NCBI GenBank assembly: GCA_030168575.1
Contig: CP115555.1
Location: 682,001 to 746,000 of the forward strand
Length of the DNA stretch: 64,000 bases
DNA from: Methanomassiliicoccales archaeon LGM-RCC1
Lineage (GTDB): Archaea > Thermoplasmatota > Thermoplasmata > Methanomassiliicoccales > Methanomethylophilaceae
Direction: 5' to 3'
In this document: positions 1 through 38,651 of the stretch, in pieces
Numbering within the stretch: the stretch's first letter is position 1
Layout of the letters: each line of letters opens with the position of its first letter
Program-made: the position numbers and the translations under genes
Notes under the pieces: model-generated
The model's database searches: none
Told to the model about the DNA's origin: nothing
The model's input: the letters and a program-made list of their open reading frames with translations, nothing else

Positions 1-3000
1 GATTCCGTCGACTGTCAGGATCTTTCCGACCTGAACAGCAAGGGTTCCTGATGCGGGAACCTCCAGGGTCACTCCTGCAGGGATGGTGGTATTCATGTCG
101 ATGACCACAGTCTCGCTGGTGGTGATCTTGATGACCTCTCCTTCCTGTGCGCCGAGCAGTGCGTAGTACACATTGGTGTACTTCATGACGTTACCGTTGG
201 TGGAGGACACATCGCTGGTCACGGAGGTGTTCTTCAGTCCGGTCAGCTTGTTCTCGACGATGAATGTTCCCTTGACGTCAACGGAGGCGTTCTTAAGGAC
301 CGCTCCATCCTTGAGGGTCGCAGTTACGGACCTGTCATCGGTAGAACCGATGATGAGTGTCGCGCCGGCAGCCGCATCGATGGTGACATCCGCAGGGATA
401 TCGAGGTTGGACAGCACTTTGTTTGTTCCGCTGATTGTGAGCTTGGTGGCTCCGCTGTCGATCGCACTTGCGAGGGTGGTGTAGATGTAGGTCTTCGTTC
501 CGAGAGTATCCATCGTGTAGAGTGTTGCGTTGATGGTACCGGTTATTGCAGACTTGGCAAAGAGGGTTCCTACTGCGGTGATGGCACCATTGTTCGTGAT
601 GGTACCTGCATCGGACGAGGTCCAATACATACTGGTTCCATCGGTAACGGTGATCGTAGTGCCCTCACTGGTCGCGAAAGAAACGTCCTTTCCAATGGAG
701 AAAATCTCACCGGTGGCGAAGTATGCTCCATCCGTGTGAGCAGCGTTCAAAGTGATGGCAACGTCCGTTCCGGCGGCCGAGGCAAGGTCCGCACTGGTCG
801 CGCCAGAGAGAACGATGGCCGCGGAGAAATATTTGACACTGTTGTATGTCCAGGAGCTGATGCTCTCTGTGATAACGAGTCCGTAGATGATATCGTTCTG
901 AGCATTCGCGACAACGGTCATGGATTCTCCCTTGGGATCGGATCCCTCTCCGATGACTCTGCCCTTTGCCAATTTGAGACCATCGTCGGTGACCGTGATA
1001 GTCCTGTTTCCGTTGGTTCCTGCATCTGAATTATTTGTGAACTTGACCTCGGAGAGGTTGATCTCCGCAGCGTTCGCCTTCATGTTCAGTACGAGAGCGG
1101 CGGTAACGCTTCCGTCGATCTTGAGCTTTCCTGCGATACCGATGGTTCCGCTGACGGATCCGTCGATCGTAAGGACAGCATCGGATCCGACAATGAGTCC
1201 GGTTCCTCCCAAGACTCCGGTCGTGCCGACGTTCATCTTTCCTGCGGTGAGTTCGATTGCGGCGTCAGCAGTGAATGTTCCGTCCACTTCGATGGTTCCG
1301 CTGGAGACGACCTTATCAGCAGCGCCTGAATTCTCTGCGACGATAAACGTTCCCGCGATATCCATCGTACCCTGGTTGTCAAGCTGCATGATCTTGGATG
1401 TTATCAGACCAGGGACAGATCCGAGAGTAAGAGTACTATTCTTCATCACAGTAAGAGTGCTTCCGGGGGTGATGTTCAACGTTCCAAGGACATTGACAGC
1501 TACTCCAGGCAGGATGTTCACATTACCGACGATGTTTACCGTCTGATACTGTTTGAAAACGATGTCCGAGACGATATCGTGTGAAATATCGATGGTCTTC
1601 GAGGCATTCTCGATGTTGAAGTTGGATACGGTGATGTAGACCTTCTGACCGATGATCGCGTTTCCGTATGCGCTGAAGGTTCCATCATTGGTGGATGCTA
1701 CAGCAGGATTAATGGTCCTGTCTGCGGTAGATGTGATCGATCCGAAGACTGCGATCTCAGATCCTTTAGAGATCTTGACCGTTCCTTGTGTAGTTCTGCT
1801 ATTAACCGTCGTTGGATCGAGCGACAGCTCCGCACCCTCTCCCACGTTAAGCCTTCCGATGTTCTGTGTAGGGGAGTCATAATATCCCACTATCAATCCG
1901 TCAGTAGGCACGTTGAAGGTACCAGACTTCAGGGTAAGGGTTCCGATCAAGGCTTTCTTCGCGCCTGAACCGCTTGGACCGTCAATCGAGTCCACGACCG
2001 ATGTGGCCTCCTCGAGCATCCAGATCTTAGCTGTAAGGTTAGCGGCACCGATCTTATGTTCAACGGTTGTACCTACTTTCACAGTCAGGCTTGTCATCGT
2101 TGCCTTCTTGAGGTAAAGGTCATACTGTTGAGTGTCATCTGCGAGAGTTATCGAATCCTCTGCCACGACAGGGGTACCCATGACCGCAAGCACGCAATAA
2201 GTACTGCTAATCAACGGGGTACCCTGTTCGATCAGTGTACTCAACGCATCAGAAGCATAATACCAACCGTCGGCTTTACCACTTGCCACGAAGTTGTAAT
2301 CAAAAGCAGTCTGAGTCTTTATTTCAGAGCCATGTGCGCCTGTGCTAGCGTAGACTGTGAATACTCCGGAGTTGATAGTCATCGAACCGGCCGTGAGATC
2401 AGCATTGGAATCGAACTTGGGCATCGTCAGAGTTGTCACAGTTGCAGAGGTCCTGGTGACTTTGGTGACATCATTGGTCGAACTTGCACCTACATATCCT
2501 TTGAAAGTGATCTTGCTCACGATGTTGCTTGATTCCTTGTTCTGTACGATGGCGGATCCGTTGAATACGGTGAACTCGTCGGTGTTCGTATCCAGAGTGA
2601 TGGTCCCTGCATCGGCGCCTTTCGCGTAGTATGTGTATGAAGTATCAGAGTAATCGTAGAAGATCATTCCGTATACACCGTTAGCGTTGATTGCAACAGT
2701 CGATGTTATCGATCCGTCGGAATTAATCTTGAACGCCTTCGAACCGCTAGAATCCGCACACTGATATTTGATCAGACTGTCATCGTATGCTCCTCCACTC
2801 CATTTCTGGGTCGTGCTGTCATACGTGGCAGCAGCAGTCATGACATGGATGATCATATTATTGGCCGCTCCCGTGTCAACGTTCAGGGTAATTCCTGCCG
2901 TTCCAGGGTAAACGTACAGATTGATTGCGGCTCCGAACTCTGTTGTGTTCGTTATACTTGTAGAGGCTGTTCCGTCTACGTAAAACGACTTTACTTGGTC

Positions 3001-3144
3001 AACGGCAGAACTGGAAGAGAATCCATCCAGACTGTCGATAACACTTGCATCGTCGTCCTGAGCAGGAGCTATGGCAGCAAATACCGCGAAAGCCATTGCG
3101 AAGACAGCAAGGACAGCCAAGAACTTAGTTGTCTTTGTGTTCAT
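1..3144 (-). CDS. secreted adhesin-like surface protein, 3' end beyond window
   Basis: An uninterrupted minus-strand frame of 1048 codons runs from ATG at 3144 off the left edge, so it is a partial gene. The first ~28 residues (MNTKTTKFLAVLAVF...) form a signal peptide: basic start, Ala/Val/Phe-rich core, then QDDDAS. The rest is Thr/Ser/Gly/Val-rich with many short beta-type repeats of the form 'G-T-L-x-I/V-x-G/S', few charges and almost no Cys, as in archaeal parallel-beta-helix or adhesin-like proteins. AAAAGGA lies 9 nt before ATG 3144; an in-frame ATG at 3153 has no room for it. It is probably exported and N-glycosylated, possibly by the AglB encoded at 24.5 kb. No catalytic motif is visible and the exact ligand cannot be inferred. 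Confidence 0.8.
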   Translation of the reverse strand, partial: MNTKTTKFLAVLAVFAMAFAVFAAIAPAQDDDASVIDSLDGFSSSSAVDQVKSFYVDGTASTSITNTTEFGAAINLYVYPGTAGITLNVDTGAANNMIIHVMTAAATYDSTTQKWSGGAYDDSLIKYQCADSSGSKAFKINSDGSITSTVAINANGVYGMIFYDYSDTSYTYYAKGADAGTITLDTNTDEFTVFNGSAIVQNKESSNIVSKITFKGYVGASSTNDVTKVTRTSATVTTLTMPKFDSNADLTAGSMTINSGVFTVYASTGAHGSEIKTQTAFDYNFVASGKADGWYYASDALSTLIEQGTPLISSTYCVLAVMGTPVVAEDSITLADDTQQYDLYLKKATMTSLTVKVGTTVEHKIGAANLTAKIWMLEEATSVVDSIDGPSGSGAKKALIGTLTLKSGTFNVPTDGLIVGYYDSPTQNIGRLNVGEGAELSLDPTTVNSRTTQGTVKISKGSEIAVFGSITSTADRTINPAVASTNDGTFSAYGNAIIGQKVYITVSNFNIENASKTIDISHDIVSDIVFKQYQTVNIVGNVNILPGVAVNVLGTLNITPGSTLTVMKNSTLTLGSVPGLITSKIMQLDNQGTMDIAGTFIVAENSGAADKVVSSGTIEVDGTFTADAAIELTAGKMNVGTTGVLGGTGLIVGSDAVLTIDGSVSGTIGIAGKLKIDGSVTAALVLNMKANAAEINLSEVKFTNNSDAGTNGNRTITVTDDGLKLAKGRVIGEGSDPKGESMTVVANAQNDIIYGLVITESISSWTYNSVKYFSAAIVLSGATSADLASAAGTDVAITLNAAHTDGAYFATGEIFSIGKDVSFATSEGTTITVTDGTSMYWTSSDAGTITNNGAITAVGTLFAKSAITGTINATLYTMDTLGTKTYIYTTLASAIDSGATKLTISGTNKVLSNLDIPADVTIDAAAGATLIIGSTDDRSVTATLKDGAVLKNASVDVKGTFIVENKLTGLKNTSVTSDVSSTNGNVMKYTNVYYALLGAQEGEVIKITTSETVVIDMNTTIPAGVTLEVPASGTLAVQVGKILTVDGI

Positions 3145-3446
3145 ATATATCATTCCTTTTCAGCGGTGAACACTCGCCTCTGATCCGGGTTGTCCTCTTC
3201 ATCCAAAGAGGAAGATGTCGAAAAATCTCCGTTTACTTGCAGGACCCCATACCCTTAATCATGGATCCCGCGGGCCTTTCACCGCCCGACCACTTCTCTC
3301 TCCTCGGGCCCCTAATTTCCTTTGGATCGAAAAGAACGGTCGAAACAATCGAATCGCATTGCAGTATTAAGAAGGGACAAAAATCACGTCCAAGACTCTG
3401 AGTCCAGGAAGGATATTCAATGAATCTGCACGAAAGACGAAATCAA
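3145..3446. other. intergenic region between surface protein and regulator
   Basis: No coding frame is convincing here. The only structure seen is a short hairpin (CCTCTT/AAGAGG-type, about 3192-3214) in the 5' region of the surface-protein gene and pyrimidine-rich sequence around 3280-3310. The promoter of the surface-protein gene must lie here, but no clear TATA box was identified. Confidence 0.4.
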
Positions 3447-3875
3447 TCAGGGATCCGTCTTTCCCTCTACGATGTCGAGGATCTCCGACAGCAGCTCCGC
3501 CGCGGCACGTCCTTTCTCGGTGATGACGACCACGTTCGCGTTGGTCCTCCCGGTGAAGAACACCTGTACCAACCCCAGTCTCCGCAGGTCCTCGATCTTC
3601 CCGGCCATGTTCTGCCTCGCGACGTCGTTGTAGATGTCGCTCTTGGTCACCGGCGACATGGTGTTCAGGTACAGCAGCAGGGAGAGCACGTGCTTCCCCT
3701 CGAGCATCTCCAGGGCCGTCCTCTCGTCCCTGCTTTTGCTCTTCTGCTTCCTGGCGAGGAACTCCTTCACCTCGTCCGGCAGCTCGTCGTAGGAATGCGG
3801 ATTCTCCCACACGTTCCCCCTGTCGTCGAGCTTCTGCCCTATGGGGATGGACGTCCTCGCCTTCTCCGCCTTCAC
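3447..3875 (-). CDS. winged-helix transcriptional regulator
   Basis: 142 aa. Residues ~55-130 look like a winged helix: a helical segment (ALEMLEGKHVLSLLLYL), a recognition-helix region (TKSDIYNDVARQNMAGKIEDLRRLGLV), a beta wing (FFTGRTNANVVVITEKG) and a C-terminal helix. The 'L..LGLV......V.ITEKGR.AA' pattern is typical of MarR/PadR-like archaeal regulators. The N-terminal ~45 residues are polar and charged. The gene is divergent from the ribbon-helix-helix gene at 4102, and a TATTTC-N4-GAAATA palindrome lies 50 bp upstream of its start, which suggests autoregulation. The ligand is unknown. Confidence 0.75.
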   Translation of the reverse strand: MKAEKARTSIPIGQKLDDRGNVWENPHSYDELPDEVKEFLARKQKSKSRDERTALEMLEGKHVLSLLLYLNTMSPVTKSDIYNDVARQNMAGKIEDLRRLGLVQVFFTGRTNANVVVITEKGRAAAELLSEILDIVEGKTDP

Positions 3876-3924
3876 AGGGTCATCCTCCCTGGAAAACCGG
3901 AGGTTTCCGGCGTACTCGCAGCGA

Positions 3925-3940
3925 TATTTCTAATGAAATA
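3925..3940. promoter_or_regulatory. palindromic operator candidate, site 1
   Basis: TATTTC-TAAT-GAAATA, a perfect 6-bp inverted repeat with a 4-bp spacer, 50 bp upstream of the winged-helix gene. The same half-sites and spacer length recur at 4050-4065, before the divergent gene. Confidence 0.5.
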
Positions 3941-4049
3941 CGGCATAATTAGGCGGATTCCTTTAAGGAACACCGCAGCCAGATGTTCGGCGGGTATGCT
4001 GGAGCGACCGTCTTCCATGATGTTCTGATAGTGTTATCATCGATAAAAG

Positions 4050-4065
4050 TATTTCATTTGAAATA
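4050..4065. promoter_or_regulatory. palindromic operator candidate, site 2
   Basis: TATTTC-ATTT-GAAATA, with half-sites and spacing identical to site 1 at 3925-3940. It lies 36 bp before ATG 4102, inside the expected core promoter, so a bound protein would be expected to block transcription of the RHH gene. Confidence 0.5.
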
Positions 4066-4101: not shown

Positions 4102-4314
4102 ATGGAGCGTAAAATCCGAACCGCACCGACATCGGTGAAGATTCCACCCAACATCCTCCAGTTCGTGGACAAGGATGTGGAGACCTCGGGAGAGTTCTCA
4201 AGCCGCACCGACTGGATAGTCGCCGCGATGCGCGAGTTCATGGCCAGGAGGATAGACATCCTCAGCAAGAGGAAGGAACTCTTCGAAAACGACGGCTCAG
4301 AGAAGAAGGACTGA
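4102..4314 (+). CDS. ribbon-helix-helix DNA-binding protein
   Basis: 70 aa. The pattern is typical of CopG/RHH proteins: a short beta strand (TAPTSVKIPP), helix 1 (NILQFVDKDVETSG), a turn with SSRTDWIV, and helix 2 (DWIVAAMREFMARRIDIL), then a charged tail. RHH proteins bind DNA as dimers through the beta ribbon. The gene is divergent from the winged-helix gene at 3875, and each gene has the same palindrome upstream, so one of the two proteins probably binds both. An antitoxin role is possible, but no toxin gene is adjacent. Confidence 0.7.
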   Translation: MERKIRTAPTSVKIPPNILQFVDKDVETSGEFSSRTDWIVAAMREFMARRIDILSKRKELFENDGSEKKD

Positions 4315-4516
4315 GCGAAACCGCTTGCTTACATAACACCCTTTTTTCATCCGACATTTGGTTCAATTAATTTGATAGTCCATCAAATGTTTGCTTTTTG
4401 ATCAACCCATGGATCCGTCCTTGACGTGATATTCGGCAATCAGCGTTCTCAGGTTACCATCTGATAAGGTGTTGGATAAATAATCCAAATTGATGACATG
4501 GCATTTGGGTTTGAAA

Positions 4517-4741
4517 ATGGACGAGAATAAGGTACAGATTTGCGGCATGGCGTTCATCAGTGGTTGGATCATGTTCTTCGGCTCGGCTATATTTCAGGCG
4601 ATAATCGATGTTAATCATACCACCATCGACTGGCTGAACCTTAATCCGTTGTATCATATCATCGGACCGTTGACCTACTTAGGATTGGCTTTCGTCATAG
4701 TATCTGCGATACTGCTGATCAGATTCTTCAGGAACAATTAA
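4517..4741 (+). CDS. small two-helix membrane protein
   Basis: 74 aa from ATG 4517 (MDENKVQICG). Two hydrophobic helices are visible: ~9-31 (MAFISGWIMFFGSAIFQAII) and ~48-70 (IIGPLTYLGLAFVIVSAILLI), followed by a positive C-terminus RFFRNN. TTG 4490 and ATG 4493 are possible earlier starts. A TATA-like TTGGATAAATAATCC around 4473-4487 would place transcription start near 4505-4512, favouring 4517 with a very short leader. No family recognised. A GC-rich hairpin follows the stop codon. Confidence 0.5.
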   Translation: MDENKVQICGMAFISGWIMFFGSAIFQAIIDVNHTTIDWLNLNPLYHIIGPLTYLGLAFVIVSAILLIRFFRNN

Positions 4742-4756
4742 CCTAACAAACAACAC

Positions 4757-4772
4757 GCCACCTCACGGTGGC
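4757..4772 (+). terminator. hairpin after small membrane protein gene
   Basis: GCCACC-TCAC-GGTGGC, a perfect 6-bp stem with a tetraloop, 15 nt after the stop at 4741. No long T-run follows, so it may instead be a 3' stabilising hairpin. Confidence 0.4.
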
Positions 4773-4828
4773 ATTAATCAATAAATGAATGCACGGACGA
4801 GACGTGTTTGGAACGGATCCGGTAATGA

Positions 4829-4836
4829 TTTTTATA
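4829..4836 (+). promoter_or_regulatory. TATA box of structured RNA copy 1
   Basis: TTTTATAC about 25 bp before the first predicted stem of the RNA. Copies 2 and 3 have equivalent boxes (TTTATACTT at 8318-8326; ATAAATACTT at 8541-8550) at similar distance, so each copy appears to be transcribed from its own promoter. Confidence 0.5.
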
Positions 4837-4854
4837 CTGACAACAGAATCGTAT

Positions 4855-5143
4855 GGTTGCAAGGCATGTAGCCTAGAGCAAATCTCCTCCCCCGAAGGGG
4901 AAGAGGTTTTTGGAGGTTGATTCCTCCTCACAACAGCATCCTGAAAGTCAGGATTGCTATTGCTAGCTCGGCTATGCGCCGGGCGAGCTCTAGGGCCAGG
5001 AACGCGGTTTGGAGTGCCTTGTTCCTCGGCCCGTTTTCATCAGACACTTTGTATCCTCCGATCAGAGCTTCTCAGGATAGGTATCCCAACCACGGAAGGA
5101 ATCCGCGGTGGGATTCCAAGTCCTGGCGCCACGAGATTTTTTC
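4855..5143 (+). ncRNA. unrecognised structured RNA, copy 1 (full length)
   Basis: A stretch without a credible ORF that folds into a chain of stems: AGGC 4862-4865/GCCT 4871-4874; CCTC+CCCC 4886-4893/GGGG+GAGG 4897-4906; GGAGG 4912-4916/CCTCC 4923-4927 with loop TTGATT; TCCTGA/TCAGGA 4939-4952; AGCTCG 4965-4970/CGAGCT 4984-4989; GGGCCAGGAAC 4993-5003/GTTCCTCGGCCC 5021-5032; and a 3' hairpin GGAATCC 5098-5104/GGATTCC 5111-5117, before a T6 run ending at 5142. The same architecture recurs at 8345 and 8566 with compensatory base changes. It shows none of the conserved motifs I know of RNase P RNA or SRP RNA. Ends are estimated from the TATA box and T-run. Confidence 0.65.
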
Positions 5144-5255
5144 GGGTAATATTTATGATATTGTCCGAGCGGTATAGTGGAAACTACGCTCTATCAATAT
5201 CTTTCCACTGAAGAATCTCCAAACTTTTTCTATTAGTATAGGATAACGACGGAGC

Positions 5256-6116
5256 ATGATAGTCATCGGCGGGTCCACATCCGAGGCTCTGGCGAAGCAG
5301 ATCGCCGAGGAGCTGGGATGCAGGTACATTCAGGCAGGCACAAGGAAGTTCCCCGACGGGGAAGTGTACACAAGGGTCGAGAGCGAGGAGTTCAACGACG
5401 ACGTCGTCATCGTACAGAACACCTTCCCGGACGACAAGCTAGTGGAGATGTTCCTCCTACAGGACATCGTCGCCGGGCTCAAGGCAAAGAAGGTGATCCT
5501 GGTCATCCCCTACTTCGGATACGCCAGACAGGACAGGCTCTTCAACCCCGGAGAGCCCGCCTCGGCCATTCTCATGTGCAAGCTGCTGGATTCGCTGGCG
5601 TGCGATCATGTCATCACGGTCGACATCCACAAGGAGGCCGTTCTGGACGCATTCACGTGCAAGCACACAGACCTCAAGGCCGCACCCGTCATCGCCGAGT
5701 ACTTCAAGGACAAGGGCATCGACCTGGTCCTGTCCCCGGACATCGGCGCGGCAGGCCGCGCCCAGTTGGTGGGAGAGACCATGGGCAAGCCCTACGACCA
5801 CCTCAACAAGACCCGCCTGTCCGGTACCGAGGTTAAGATCGCCCCCGCCTACATGGACTGCAAGGACAAGAGCATCCTGATCGTGGACGACATGATCTCC
5901 ACCGGAGGCACCATAATGACCGCCGCCCAGGCACTAAGGGACGCTGGCGCCAAGAGCGTTTCCGTGGCCTGCACCCACGGGGTGTTCGTGAACGGAGCGA
6001 TAGAGAAGCTCACCCACAGCGCCCTGGACAAGGTCCTGTGCTGCAACACTCTGGAGAACTCCCAGTCGCAGATCTCCGTCGCCAAGCTGATCGCCGATGC
6101 TGTGAGGAAGGGATGA
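5256..6116 (+). CDS. prs: ribose-phosphate pyrophosphokinase (PRPP synthetase)
   Basis: 286 aa, the usual length for archaeal PRPP synthetase. It makes PRPP from ribose-5-phosphate and ATP for purine, pyrimidine and amino-acid synthesis in the cytoplasm. Visible motifs are the N-terminal FPDGE region, the PYFGYARQDR segment (~86-95), VDIHKE (~122-127, catalytic/metal loop) and the PRPP-binding loop IVDDMISTGGT (~208-218). It is the first gene of prs-proS-trmI and overlaps proS. Its promoter lies just after RNA copy 1, with a TATA-like TATTAGTATAGG near 5231-5243. PurD and PyrF, elsewhere in the window, belong to pathways that consume PRPP. Confidence 0.97.
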   Translation: MIVIGGSTSEALAKQIAEELGCRYIQAGTRKFPDGEVYTRVESEEFNDDVVIVQNTFPDDKLVEMFLLQDIVAGLKAKKVILVIPYFGYARQDRLFNPGEPASAILMCKLLDSLACDHVITVDIHKEAVLDAFTCKHTDLKAAPVIAEYFKDKGIDLVLSPDIGAAGRAQLVGETMGKPYDHLNKTRLSGTEVKIAPAYMDCKDKSILIVDDMISTGGTIMTAAQALRDAGAKSVSVACTHGVFVNGAIEKLTHSALDKVLCCNTLENSQSQISVAKLIADAVRKG

Positions 6117-36900: not shown

Positions 36901-36932
36901 AGCCCTAGCGGTCCGCGAGTTGTTGATAAAAC

Positions 36933-36984
36933 ATGACCAGCGACGATTACGGGTGACACAATACCCGTCTTAGTCGCTGGTCAT
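36933..36984 (+). terminator. long double hairpin after gatE
   Basis: ATGACCAGCGAC (36933-36944) pairs with GTCGCTGGTCAT (36973-36984); inside it ACGGGT (36949-36954) pairs with ACCCGT (36963-36968). There is no T-run after it, so a 3'-end stabiliser, a small RNA or a recombination site are alternatives to a terminator. Confidence 0.45.
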
Positions 36985-37215
36985 TTCGTGGATTCTTTGC
37001 GATTAGTATCGTGATTGAAGAGATCAGAGTGCATTCTCTTTCCGATTTTACACAGGATTGAGTGTTATGGCCATAGGTCTCTTGGGAGACCCTCTTTTGG
37101 ATAGCTTCCAATAACTTTGGACGGTCGGAACGAGTTCCGGAATTGCACCGGGAGTTGGGAAGTGCATGAATCCGATATGTGTTTATGTCAACATCAACGA
37201 GATTATTAATATCAA

Positions 37216-37243
37216 GAATTTATTGGATATATCCAATAAATTC
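37216..37243. repeat. perfect 28-bp palindrome before ATPase gene; left copy of direct repeat
   Basis: The arm GAATTTATTGGATA is followed by its exact reverse complement TATCCAATAAATTC. The right 20 nt (37224-37243, TGGATATATCCAATAAATTC) recur exactly just after the gene at 38503-38522. It lies 12 bp before the start codon, so it also covers the expected transcription start. Confidence 0.8.
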
Positions 37244-37254
37244 ACAGTGATATC

Positions 37255-38502
37255 ATGGAGATTAGCAGACCAAGGTACCTGGACAGGCTCATAAGGCTGA
37301 GATTCAAGGGAGGTGTGAAGGTCATCACCGGTATGAGACGCTCCGGGAAGTCATATCTGTTGTTCAACTTATTCAAGGATTATCTCCTGTCAATAGATGT
37401 ACCCGATAGGAACATCATCTGCATAGCATTGGACTCTGTTGAGAACGCTCATCTTCGTGACGCTGTAGCACTGTATGAACAAGTATCGTCTCTAATCACC
37501 GATGATTCAGAATATTACATCCTCCTGGACGAGATACAGCTGGTAGAAGGCTTTGAGGAGGTCGTTAATAGCCTGAAGAGGAGAAGGAACGTGGATGTGT
37601 ACATCACTGGCAGCAATTCCAAGTTTCTTTCCTCCGACATTGTCACGGAGTTCCGCGGAAGGGGGACGGAAATAAACGTGAGGCCGTTGTCCTTCTCCGA
37701 ATACCTTCCCTATTCTGGAAAGGATGAACGCACAGCATGGTATGATTACCTGACTTATGGAGGGCTTCCGGAATCCATTGATCTGGAAACGGAGGATAGG
37801 ATGGCATATCTATCCGAACTGATCGATGTCGTGTACATGAGGGACATCATCGAGAGGAAAAGGATCCGGATGCCCGATGTGATGGATTCCGTGTTCAGCG
37901 TCCTCTCCTCGGCGATCGGTTCTTTGACCAATCCGAATCGTCTCACCGATACGCTGCGCAGCCATCACGTAGATGTCGCCGGCACCACTGTGTCCGAATA
38001 CATAGACCATCTGAAGGATTCCTTCCTGTTCGAGGAATCGAAGCGCTTCGATCTCAAAGGCAGAGCGTATTTCGATACCCCTTCCAAATACTACGCCACC
38101 GATCTCGGACTCAGGAATGCTAAGCTAGGCTTCAGGCAGACGGAGTTCAACCATCTTATGGAGAATGCGATATACAACGAGCTCAGGTACAGGGGATATT
38201 CCGTTGATGTAGGCATCATAGGTTTCAGGGAGTACATAGAAGGCAAACGTGAATACAGGCAGCTGGAGATCGATTTTGTCGCCAACAAGGGGAGCGAGAG
38301 GTACTACATACAATCGGCCTATCGCATAGATGACGATTCGAAGAGGAAACAGGAGGTCAGACCCTTCTTGAAGATGAATGACGGTTTCAGGAAGATCATC
38401 ATCGTCGATGGGGATGCACCGAAGACCATAGACGAGGACGGGGTTGTGACCATGAATGTAATCGATTTCATGAAGGATCCTGAAAGTCTAAACAGAATCT
38501 AA
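37255..38502 (+). CDS. AAA-type ATPase with DUF4143-like C-terminus
   Basis: 415 aa. Walker A is TGMRRSGKSYLL (~25-36) and Walker B YYILLDEIQLVEG (~87-99). A sensor Asn/Arg segment VYITGSNSKFLSSDIVTEFRGRG and the 'PLSFSEY' motif are typical of archaeal AAA_14 ATPases. The C-terminal half (~190-400) has KYYATDLGLRNA and 'ENAIYNELRYRGYSVDVG', the winged/nuclease-like DUF4143 region (K/E/D residues in 'LEIDFVA'). The family is abundant in host-associated archaea and of unclear role. It is flanked by identical 20-bp repeats, suggesting a mobile or inserted cassette. Confidence 0.88.
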   Translation: MEISRPRYLDRLIRLRFKGGVKVITGMRRSGKSYLLFNLFKDYLLSIDVPDRNIICIALDSVENAHLRDAVALYEQVSSLITDDSEYYILLDEIQLVEGFEEVVNSLKRRRNVDVYITGSNSKFLSSDIVTEFRGRGTEINVRPLSFSEYLPYSGKDERTAWYDYLTYGGLPESIDLETEDRMAYLSELIDVVYMRDIIERKRIRMPDVMDSVFSVLSSAIGSLTNPNRLTDTLRSHHVDVAGTTVSEYIDHLKDSFLFEESKRFDLKGRAYFDTPSKYYATDLGLRNAKLGFRQTEFNHLMENAIYNELRYRGYSVDVGIIGFREYIEGKREYRQLEIDFVANKGSERYYIQSAYRIDDDSKRKQEVRPFLKMNDGFRKIIIVDGDAPKTIDEDGVVTMNVIDFMKDPESLNRI

Positions 38503-38522
38503 TGGATATATCCAATAAATTC
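38503..38522. repeat. right copy of 20-bp direct repeat
   Basis: TGGATATATCCAATAAATTC begins immediately after the ATPase stop codon (38500-38502) and equals 37224-37243. It may be a target duplication, an attachment site or a second regulator-binding site. Confidence 0.8.
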
Positions 38523-38651
38523 TTGATATAAACGATATCGTTGATAGAAACACAGTCATCCGTTGGATTCATATCCATCATAGTTCTCGAAACATTTACA
38601 GAGCGTACTGTGTCGAAGTCAGGCAGATCGTCATAAACCTCTTTTGAATCA

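Follow-up and report, generated by a model that had tools for sequence, protein, structure and literature searches.

REP palindromes and their RAYT genes are a known case of palindromes that flank a single gene and co-diverge with it, and the RAYT proteins are HUH-type transposases. Phage repressors and toxin-antitoxin genes are autoregulated through twin operators around the promoter, and Orc1/Cdc6 proteins bind the repeats of replication origins. In this study, we analyzed a stretch of 64,000 nucleotides from the Methanomassiliicoccales archaeon LGM-RCC1 (contig CP115555.1, positions 682,001 to 746,000; hereafter the window), in which a single AAA ATPase gene is accompanied by a palindrome at each end. 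Unlike the REP-RAYT pairs, the gene encodes an AAA ATPase and not an HUH tyrosine transposase, and its palindrome is not dispersed in the genome. As in twin-operator autoregulated genes, two dyads straddle a promoter at a fixed spacing in members of the family, but a large AAA+/nuclease-like protein would be the regulator here, and the second site of the window clade is 1.28 kb away. The predicted combination of AAA+ and winged helix resembles that of Orc1/Cdc6, which was also recovered as a fold match, whereas the nuclease-like C-terminal domain and the location of the sites at the gene itself, not at a known origin, distinguish the two.

By profile, the window protein is a member of PDC-S01 (AAA_14 plus DUF4143), a single-gene phage-defence candidate in PADLOC, with an anti-phage role as its candidate function. 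The accessible text of one article describes PDC-S01 as the fourth most common defence across prokaryotes, with multiple cross-domain transfers and with the ATPase fused to a PD-(D/E)XK fold, and states that most PDCs await validation (PMC12988326). In their accessible parts, this article and a second one stress the abundance of PDC-S01, for which they give no validated mechanism (PMC12988326, PMC13356809). As to cognate palindromes, neither 'palindrom' nor 'inverted repeat' occurs in the former (PMC12988326), and we found no account of them in the open-access literature searched for DUF4143, AAA_14 and PDC-S01, where the family itself is already known as a defence candidate.

The ATPase gene (415 aa) occupies positions 37255-38502 on the plus strand. 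The sequence TGGATATATCCAATAAATTC is present exactly at 37224-37243 (+) and at 38503-38522 (+), and none of 100 shuffles of the window reproduced this match. A perfect 28-bp palindrome at 37216-37243 (GAATTTATTGGATATATCCAATAAATTC), the proposed operator, contains the left copy as its right part, and the right copy starts directly 3' of the TAA (38500-38502). In these respects the preliminary description of the locus, which had reported an exact 20-bp repeat before the start codon and after the stop and a palindrome around the left copy, was borne out; its distance of 12 bp between the left copy and the start codon was not, since 11 bp separate the palindrome from the ATG at 37255. It had also missed that the right copy, 1.28 kb from the left one, is likewise palindromic (28 bp, 2 mismatches, 38495-38522), and that both ends form an imperfect inverted repeat of 78 nt, with 37166-37243 (+; TATA region and palindrome) as the left arm and 38495-38572 (-) as the right arm, 77% complementary to the left. 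Because it spans 38495-38522, the right palindrome overlaps the last codons and the stop of the gene. A TATA-like stretch (TTATTAATA, 37203-37211, +), recognized by eye and regarded as a putative promoter element, lies directly 5' of the left palindrome, and the same arrangement is found in L015, L042, L085, L018 and L013.

A genome-wide search, which the preliminary description had suggested, confined the 20-mer with up to 3 mismatches to the two palindromes in the one-contig genome of 1,664,211 bases, and the reversed 20-mer, used as a control, had no match in the whole genome. The preliminary description had also asked whether other ATPase copies carry the repeat; in the window genome, the other two close family genes have upstream dyads of their own with other sequences, and thus the site is gene-specific. 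The ATPase unit is contained in an interval of 1,751 bp (36901-38651) between two genes that we take to be gatE and a DMT/EamA-type transporter gene. Just 3' of gatE, this interval, which is nearly absent from congeners, also holds an imperfect 22-nt inverted repeat at 36933-36984 (86%, 8 nt between the arms) that is unrelated to the palindromes.

Both Pfam profiles scored above their cut-offs (AAA_14, 109.9 bits with a cut-off of 27; DUF4143, 58.6 bits with a cut-off of 28.1), and the PADLOC model of PDC-S01 (PDLC04787) matched residues 3-408 of 415 with an E-value of 7.7e-122. In the AlphaFold model, which is confident (mean pLDDT 89.7), the AAA+ part is followed by three helices and a beta hairpin at 207-281, in winged-helix order, and the C-terminal core has the order helix-strand-strand-strand-helix, as in PD-(D/E)XK folds. 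The predicted architecture would be an AAA+ module, a winged helix and a nuclease-like domain. A Foldseek search with the whole model, in which the TM-scores were modest, gave the Walker-type ATPase PABY2304 as the top match (TM 0.49), followed by Orc1/Cdc6 bound to origin DNA and then Cdn1; VC1899 and Can2 were also found. Across 29 aligned relatives, E303 is nearly invariant and D340 and Q353 are invariant, and two positions beyond Q353 the 29 aligned rows have A, S, V or C in place of the lysine of PD-(D/E)XK. With the motif assigned by ourselves, the catalytic PD-(D/E)XK motif appears to be incomplete; since the usual lysine is absent, nuclease activity is doubtful.

To place the locus among its relatives, 196 loci were collected and 186 family ORFs were found, of which 147 entered the analysis: their E-values were below 1e-15, the start was covered, each side had at least 100 bp, and identical genes were counted once. 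Other long ORFs of the same loci (480 neighbour genes) served as the control set. A bracket, defined as a repeat with a score of at least 16 common to the 120-bp stretches that precede the start and follow the stop, was present in 24 of the 147 family genes versus only one of the 480 neighbour genes, and in this single control, from L174, the repeat is simply direct and not palindromic. At L174 3546-4134 (minus-strand frame), a small membrane-protein ORF lies between copies of a 65-bp direct repeat. The bracketing palindromes differ in sequence between subfamilies and branches, and in nearly all bracketed genes the first base of the downstream palindrome falls in a range from about 15 bp before the stop to 11 bp after it, and the stop codon is often provided by the palindrome. 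Bacterial family members may be bracketed as well (L061, Lachnospiraceae; L086, Bacilli). Among 25 bracketed loci, 17 were best read as direct copies and 8 as inverted ones. Of the loci collected, L001 and L041 are one locus sampled from two strains of a single species, and L056 and L057 are near-copies. A tree of 139 family proteins, from which 8 of the 147 with weak or partial matches were left out, grouped 20 of the 25 rows with a bracket (score at least 14) within a single clade of 43, with at least 14 changes needed to explain the bracket state. In the nearest clade of the window gene, all nine members have the 5' palindrome and three lack the 3' palindrome.

Palindromes are more widespread upstream of the genes. 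Scanning 120 bp per side for dyads (score at least 10) revealed a strong dyad before the start in 72 of 147 family genes versus 27 of 480 neighbour genes, and after the stop in 30 of 147 versus 57 of 480, a slight excess. At a repeat score of 12, 91 of the 147 family genes had an upstream repeat (75), a repeat common to upstream and downstream (25) or both (9), and 56 had neither upstream repeat nor bracket; the corresponding controls were 28 and 4 of 458. Two similar palindromes were found upstream of 29 of 147 family genes versus 4 of 480 neighbour genes. The centres of these twins are 38.5-42 bp apart in 19 of the 29, approximately four helical turns (counted within family genes only), and the spacing is kept although the palindrome sequences differ. 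In the bacterial loci L051 and L081, twin TTGCGATAACTCGCAA sites straddle TTGTRA-17-TATAAT, which we read as a putative sigma-70 promoter. Moreover, palindrome likeness tracks protein likeness among the 71 members that have a dyad upstream (Mantel r 0.475, reached in 0 of 2000 permutations): a common palindrome was shared by 39% of the 59 pairs at 50-65% identity and 74% of the 27 pairs at 65-80%, and by 3-8% of the pairs below 50%.

Palindromes of the window type also occur alone. A search of 60 relatives, allowing up to 3 mismatches in 21 bases, gave three places with at most 2 mismatches on both strands and no adjacent family gene (G013:C13, G024:C9 and G034:C2); with the reversed sequence as a control, the same 60 relatives had one match, on a single strand. 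To its left, the solo palindrome of G013 is joined to 152 bp that match the left flank of the L085 gene (90%); its other half, starting at the centre, corresponds to the right palindrome (half-site) of L085, and the match continues for about 12 bp beyond. L085 lies just 3' of a tRNA-Arg(CCG), and the stretch common with G013 begins in the last bases of that tRNA. With a right-hand match this short, the hybrid may be either the outcome of an exchange between two palindromes or an insertion target. In G034, where no ATPase relative was detected, the solo palindrome lies just 5' of what is presumably an sfsA-like gene, and that of G024 lies 5' of a gene that we take to encode an M20-type peptidase. 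In three genomes (L085, 4781-4857; L292, about 5330-5475; L141, 3436-3487), sequence of the tRNA-Arg(CCG) 3' end adjoins either family ATPases or a solo palindrome, and this 3' end is likely an insertion hot spot.

Comparison of related genomes revealed that the ATPase gene is gained or lost as a unit between strains and species. In the congeners G012 and G024, gatE and the transporter gene lie within a few tens of bp of each other, with no ATPase between them. A second bracketed gene of G024 lies between orc1/cdc6 and rfcS, a place that is often close to the replication origin, and these neighbours are adjacent in G000, G003, G007 and G012; the neighbours of the first G024 element are not syntenic. 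In L184 (8533-9759), a bracketed ATPase lies between orc1/cdc6 and rfcS. The preliminary description had proposed looking for empty sites in relatives, and gene-free spots were indeed found, but no palindrome is present at those of G000, G003, G007, G012 and G024. With 100-350 bp of additional sequence, the filled sites show no clean footprint or exact junction, and the orc1-rfcS spot was dropped as a clean empty/filled pair for this reason. G060, a second strain of the window species, has the window gene at the corresponding position, where its 5' palindrome differs by one base, and an extra family ATPase (C2:150565-151833) without a counterpart at the same place in G000. The counterpart spot in G000 consists of 192 bp with one palindrome-like remnant; it was rejected as a clean same-species empty site, because the remnant means that it is possibly a decayed copy and not a virgin site. 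L135_3260 and L141_2013, which belong to two species and have no 3' palindrome, are 96.6% identical from -261 to stop+11. Members without the 3' palindrome come and go too, and thus movement does not need the bracket. The unit contains no transposase: the ATPase is the only long ORF on its coding strand and has no transposase domain. It is present at a single locus and not, like an insertion sequence, in several genomic copies. No target-site duplication was seen at the outer edges, with empty sites too diverged or rearranged for an exact junction. A composite arrangement was observed in L068 (2700-5640), with a window-type palindrome, a different family ATPase (2880-4058), a second window-type palindrome and a window-type ATPase (4266-5513), and a GC-rich direct repeat surrounds the last of these, with copies about 170 bp ahead of its start and about 70 bp past its stop.

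Based on these sequence comparisons, the palindrome is probably the DNA site cognate to the ATPase and most likely acts as its operator. A dimer of the ATPase would occupy the dyad that separates the TATA-like box from the start codon, keeping its own gene repressed until it is released by a signal such as infection or the nucleotide state. One or two upstream sites of this kind appear to serve most of the family, and in the window clade a second operator copy would be located at the stop codon, where it could pair with the first and loop out the gene or, alternatively, block read-through and antisense transcription. We infer that the ATPase itself is the binder and that the effect is repression, as well as any role for the 3' copy. 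Autoregulation by cognate palindromes is favoured because it explains the upstream sites, their promoter position, their specificity for the gene's own subfamily and their spacing. Thus, of the two readings offered by the preliminary description, self-regulation through a paired binding site is the better supported, although only in part, owing to the family-wide promoter palindromes, the subfamily-specific sequence, the fixed twin spacing and the predicted winged-helix fold. Since three of the nine nearest-clade members lack it, the stop-codon site may be an addition in some branches, acting in looping, as a roadblock or as a cassette end; because the two copies are alike, our guess is that the 3' copy was made by copying the 5' one. 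Against an operator, 56 of the 147 members have no upstream repeat and no bracket at a score of 12, the 5' palindrome has no fixed distance from the start or the TATA-like stretch, and in L023 and L024 it lies 5' of that stretch. An operator also leaves unexplained why a second copy hugs the stop codon, why the asymmetric bases of the 3' copy often match the 5' copy directly beyond the palindrome (about 15 bp in L024; up to the start codon in L020), and why solo window-type palindromes exist in G013, G024 and G034. The solo sites 5' of the sfsA-like and peptidase genes would be expected if the palindromes served a host regulator as operators, or belonged to another defence factor controlling the ATPase, a reading that we consider very unlikely. 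Each subfamily has its own sequence, the likeness of which follows the ATPase, and the site is found nowhere else in the window's genome. Both copies could be transcribed, and the dyads of several members have loops of 9-17 nt (L036, L061, L122_6375 and L193), as might suit RNA hairpins, one on the 5' side near the ribosome site and one on the 3' side at the stop, that act in translation control, mRNA stability or termination. This role in RNA seems extremely doubtful, however, as many dyads are loop-free (the window, L020 and L023), twin spacing and promoter straddling fit DNA binding, and some copies lie 40-75 bp before the start, beyond the TATA-like stretch (L023 and L024). The private DNA site of each subfamily offers a direct handle, predicting what the protein binds, and suggests that the gene is kept silent by its own product.

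The other reading of the preliminary description, gene movement by recombination at these sites, would make the palindromes the ends at which a palindrome-gene-palindrome cassette excises or integrates, leaving or using one palindrome. The agent could be the nuclease-like domain of the ATPase, a host enzyme or homologous recombination between the repeats. The excess of brackets over controls and the position of the 3' palindrome near the stop agree with this cassette, which we nevertheless regard as rather unlikely. Homology between copies stops at the outer palindrome edges in several pairs, but at about 70% nucleotide identity homology ends at any conserved site, so that these edges are weak evidence; the simple mobile-element reading from homology edges was demoted, with closer pairs without the 3' palindrome showing similar limits. 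Sites of the same locus are more alike (mean 30.9, n = 14) than same-side sites of sister loci (21.1, n = 38), and the own partner is the best match in 8 of 14 bracketed loci from four subfamilies, although the site windows were picked from the within-locus alignment, which favours within-locus likeness. The gene is missing at the orthologous spot in congeners, the orc1-rfcS spot included, but the empty sites hold no palindrome and the filled ones hold extra sequence. The G013 hybrid is what palindrome-to-palindrome exchange would be expected to leave, but shares only the approximately 12 bp with L085 to the right of the palindrome. Members without the 3' palindrome also move as single genes, with limits 0-15 bp beyond the stop, and the unit has neither transposase nor integrase and is present in a single copy. 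Thus, the claim of movement has weak support in that the gene comes and goes and one hybrid solo palindrome fits recombination, and is weakened in that the bracket is not needed, three of nine nearest-clade members having the 5' palindrome alone, and in that neither transposase nor target duplication was seen. In view of the hybrid and of the strain-level loss or gain of the gene, recombination at the palindromes may still take part in the movement. A combination of both functions is also conceivable, if improbable: the window-clade PDC-S01 ATPases might be minimal transposase-free selfish genes, in which one site serves as both repressor site and recombination end. The AAA+/nuclease-like protein would recognize its own operator, a second copy of which marks the other end of the gene, and exchange between the two copies would excise or insert the single gene. 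The stop-codon copy and the solo palindromes are concrete places to study the spread of such single genes.

Further observations concern transfer and extrachromosomal forms. The ATPase gene of L019 (archaeal genome G040) and that of L081 (a Clostridia MAG) have 76% DNA identity from the start to stop+18, which reflects either a recent cross-domain transfer or a binning error. One scan of viral contigs gave 18 pattern matches, none of which was confirmed. Finally, a 2,630-bp circle of Prevotella nigrescens (L328, NZ_CP133466.1) matches, with 100% identity, a segment of a 568-kb record (L329, NZ_CP082843.1 region) with a PDC-S01-type ATPase and a partial Eco57I-type methylase, next to an Mpi-family recombinase gene. 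It was rejected as an excised element of the kind discussed here, as its gene has no repeat common to upstream and downstream, and is probably an excision product of a shuffling restriction locus.
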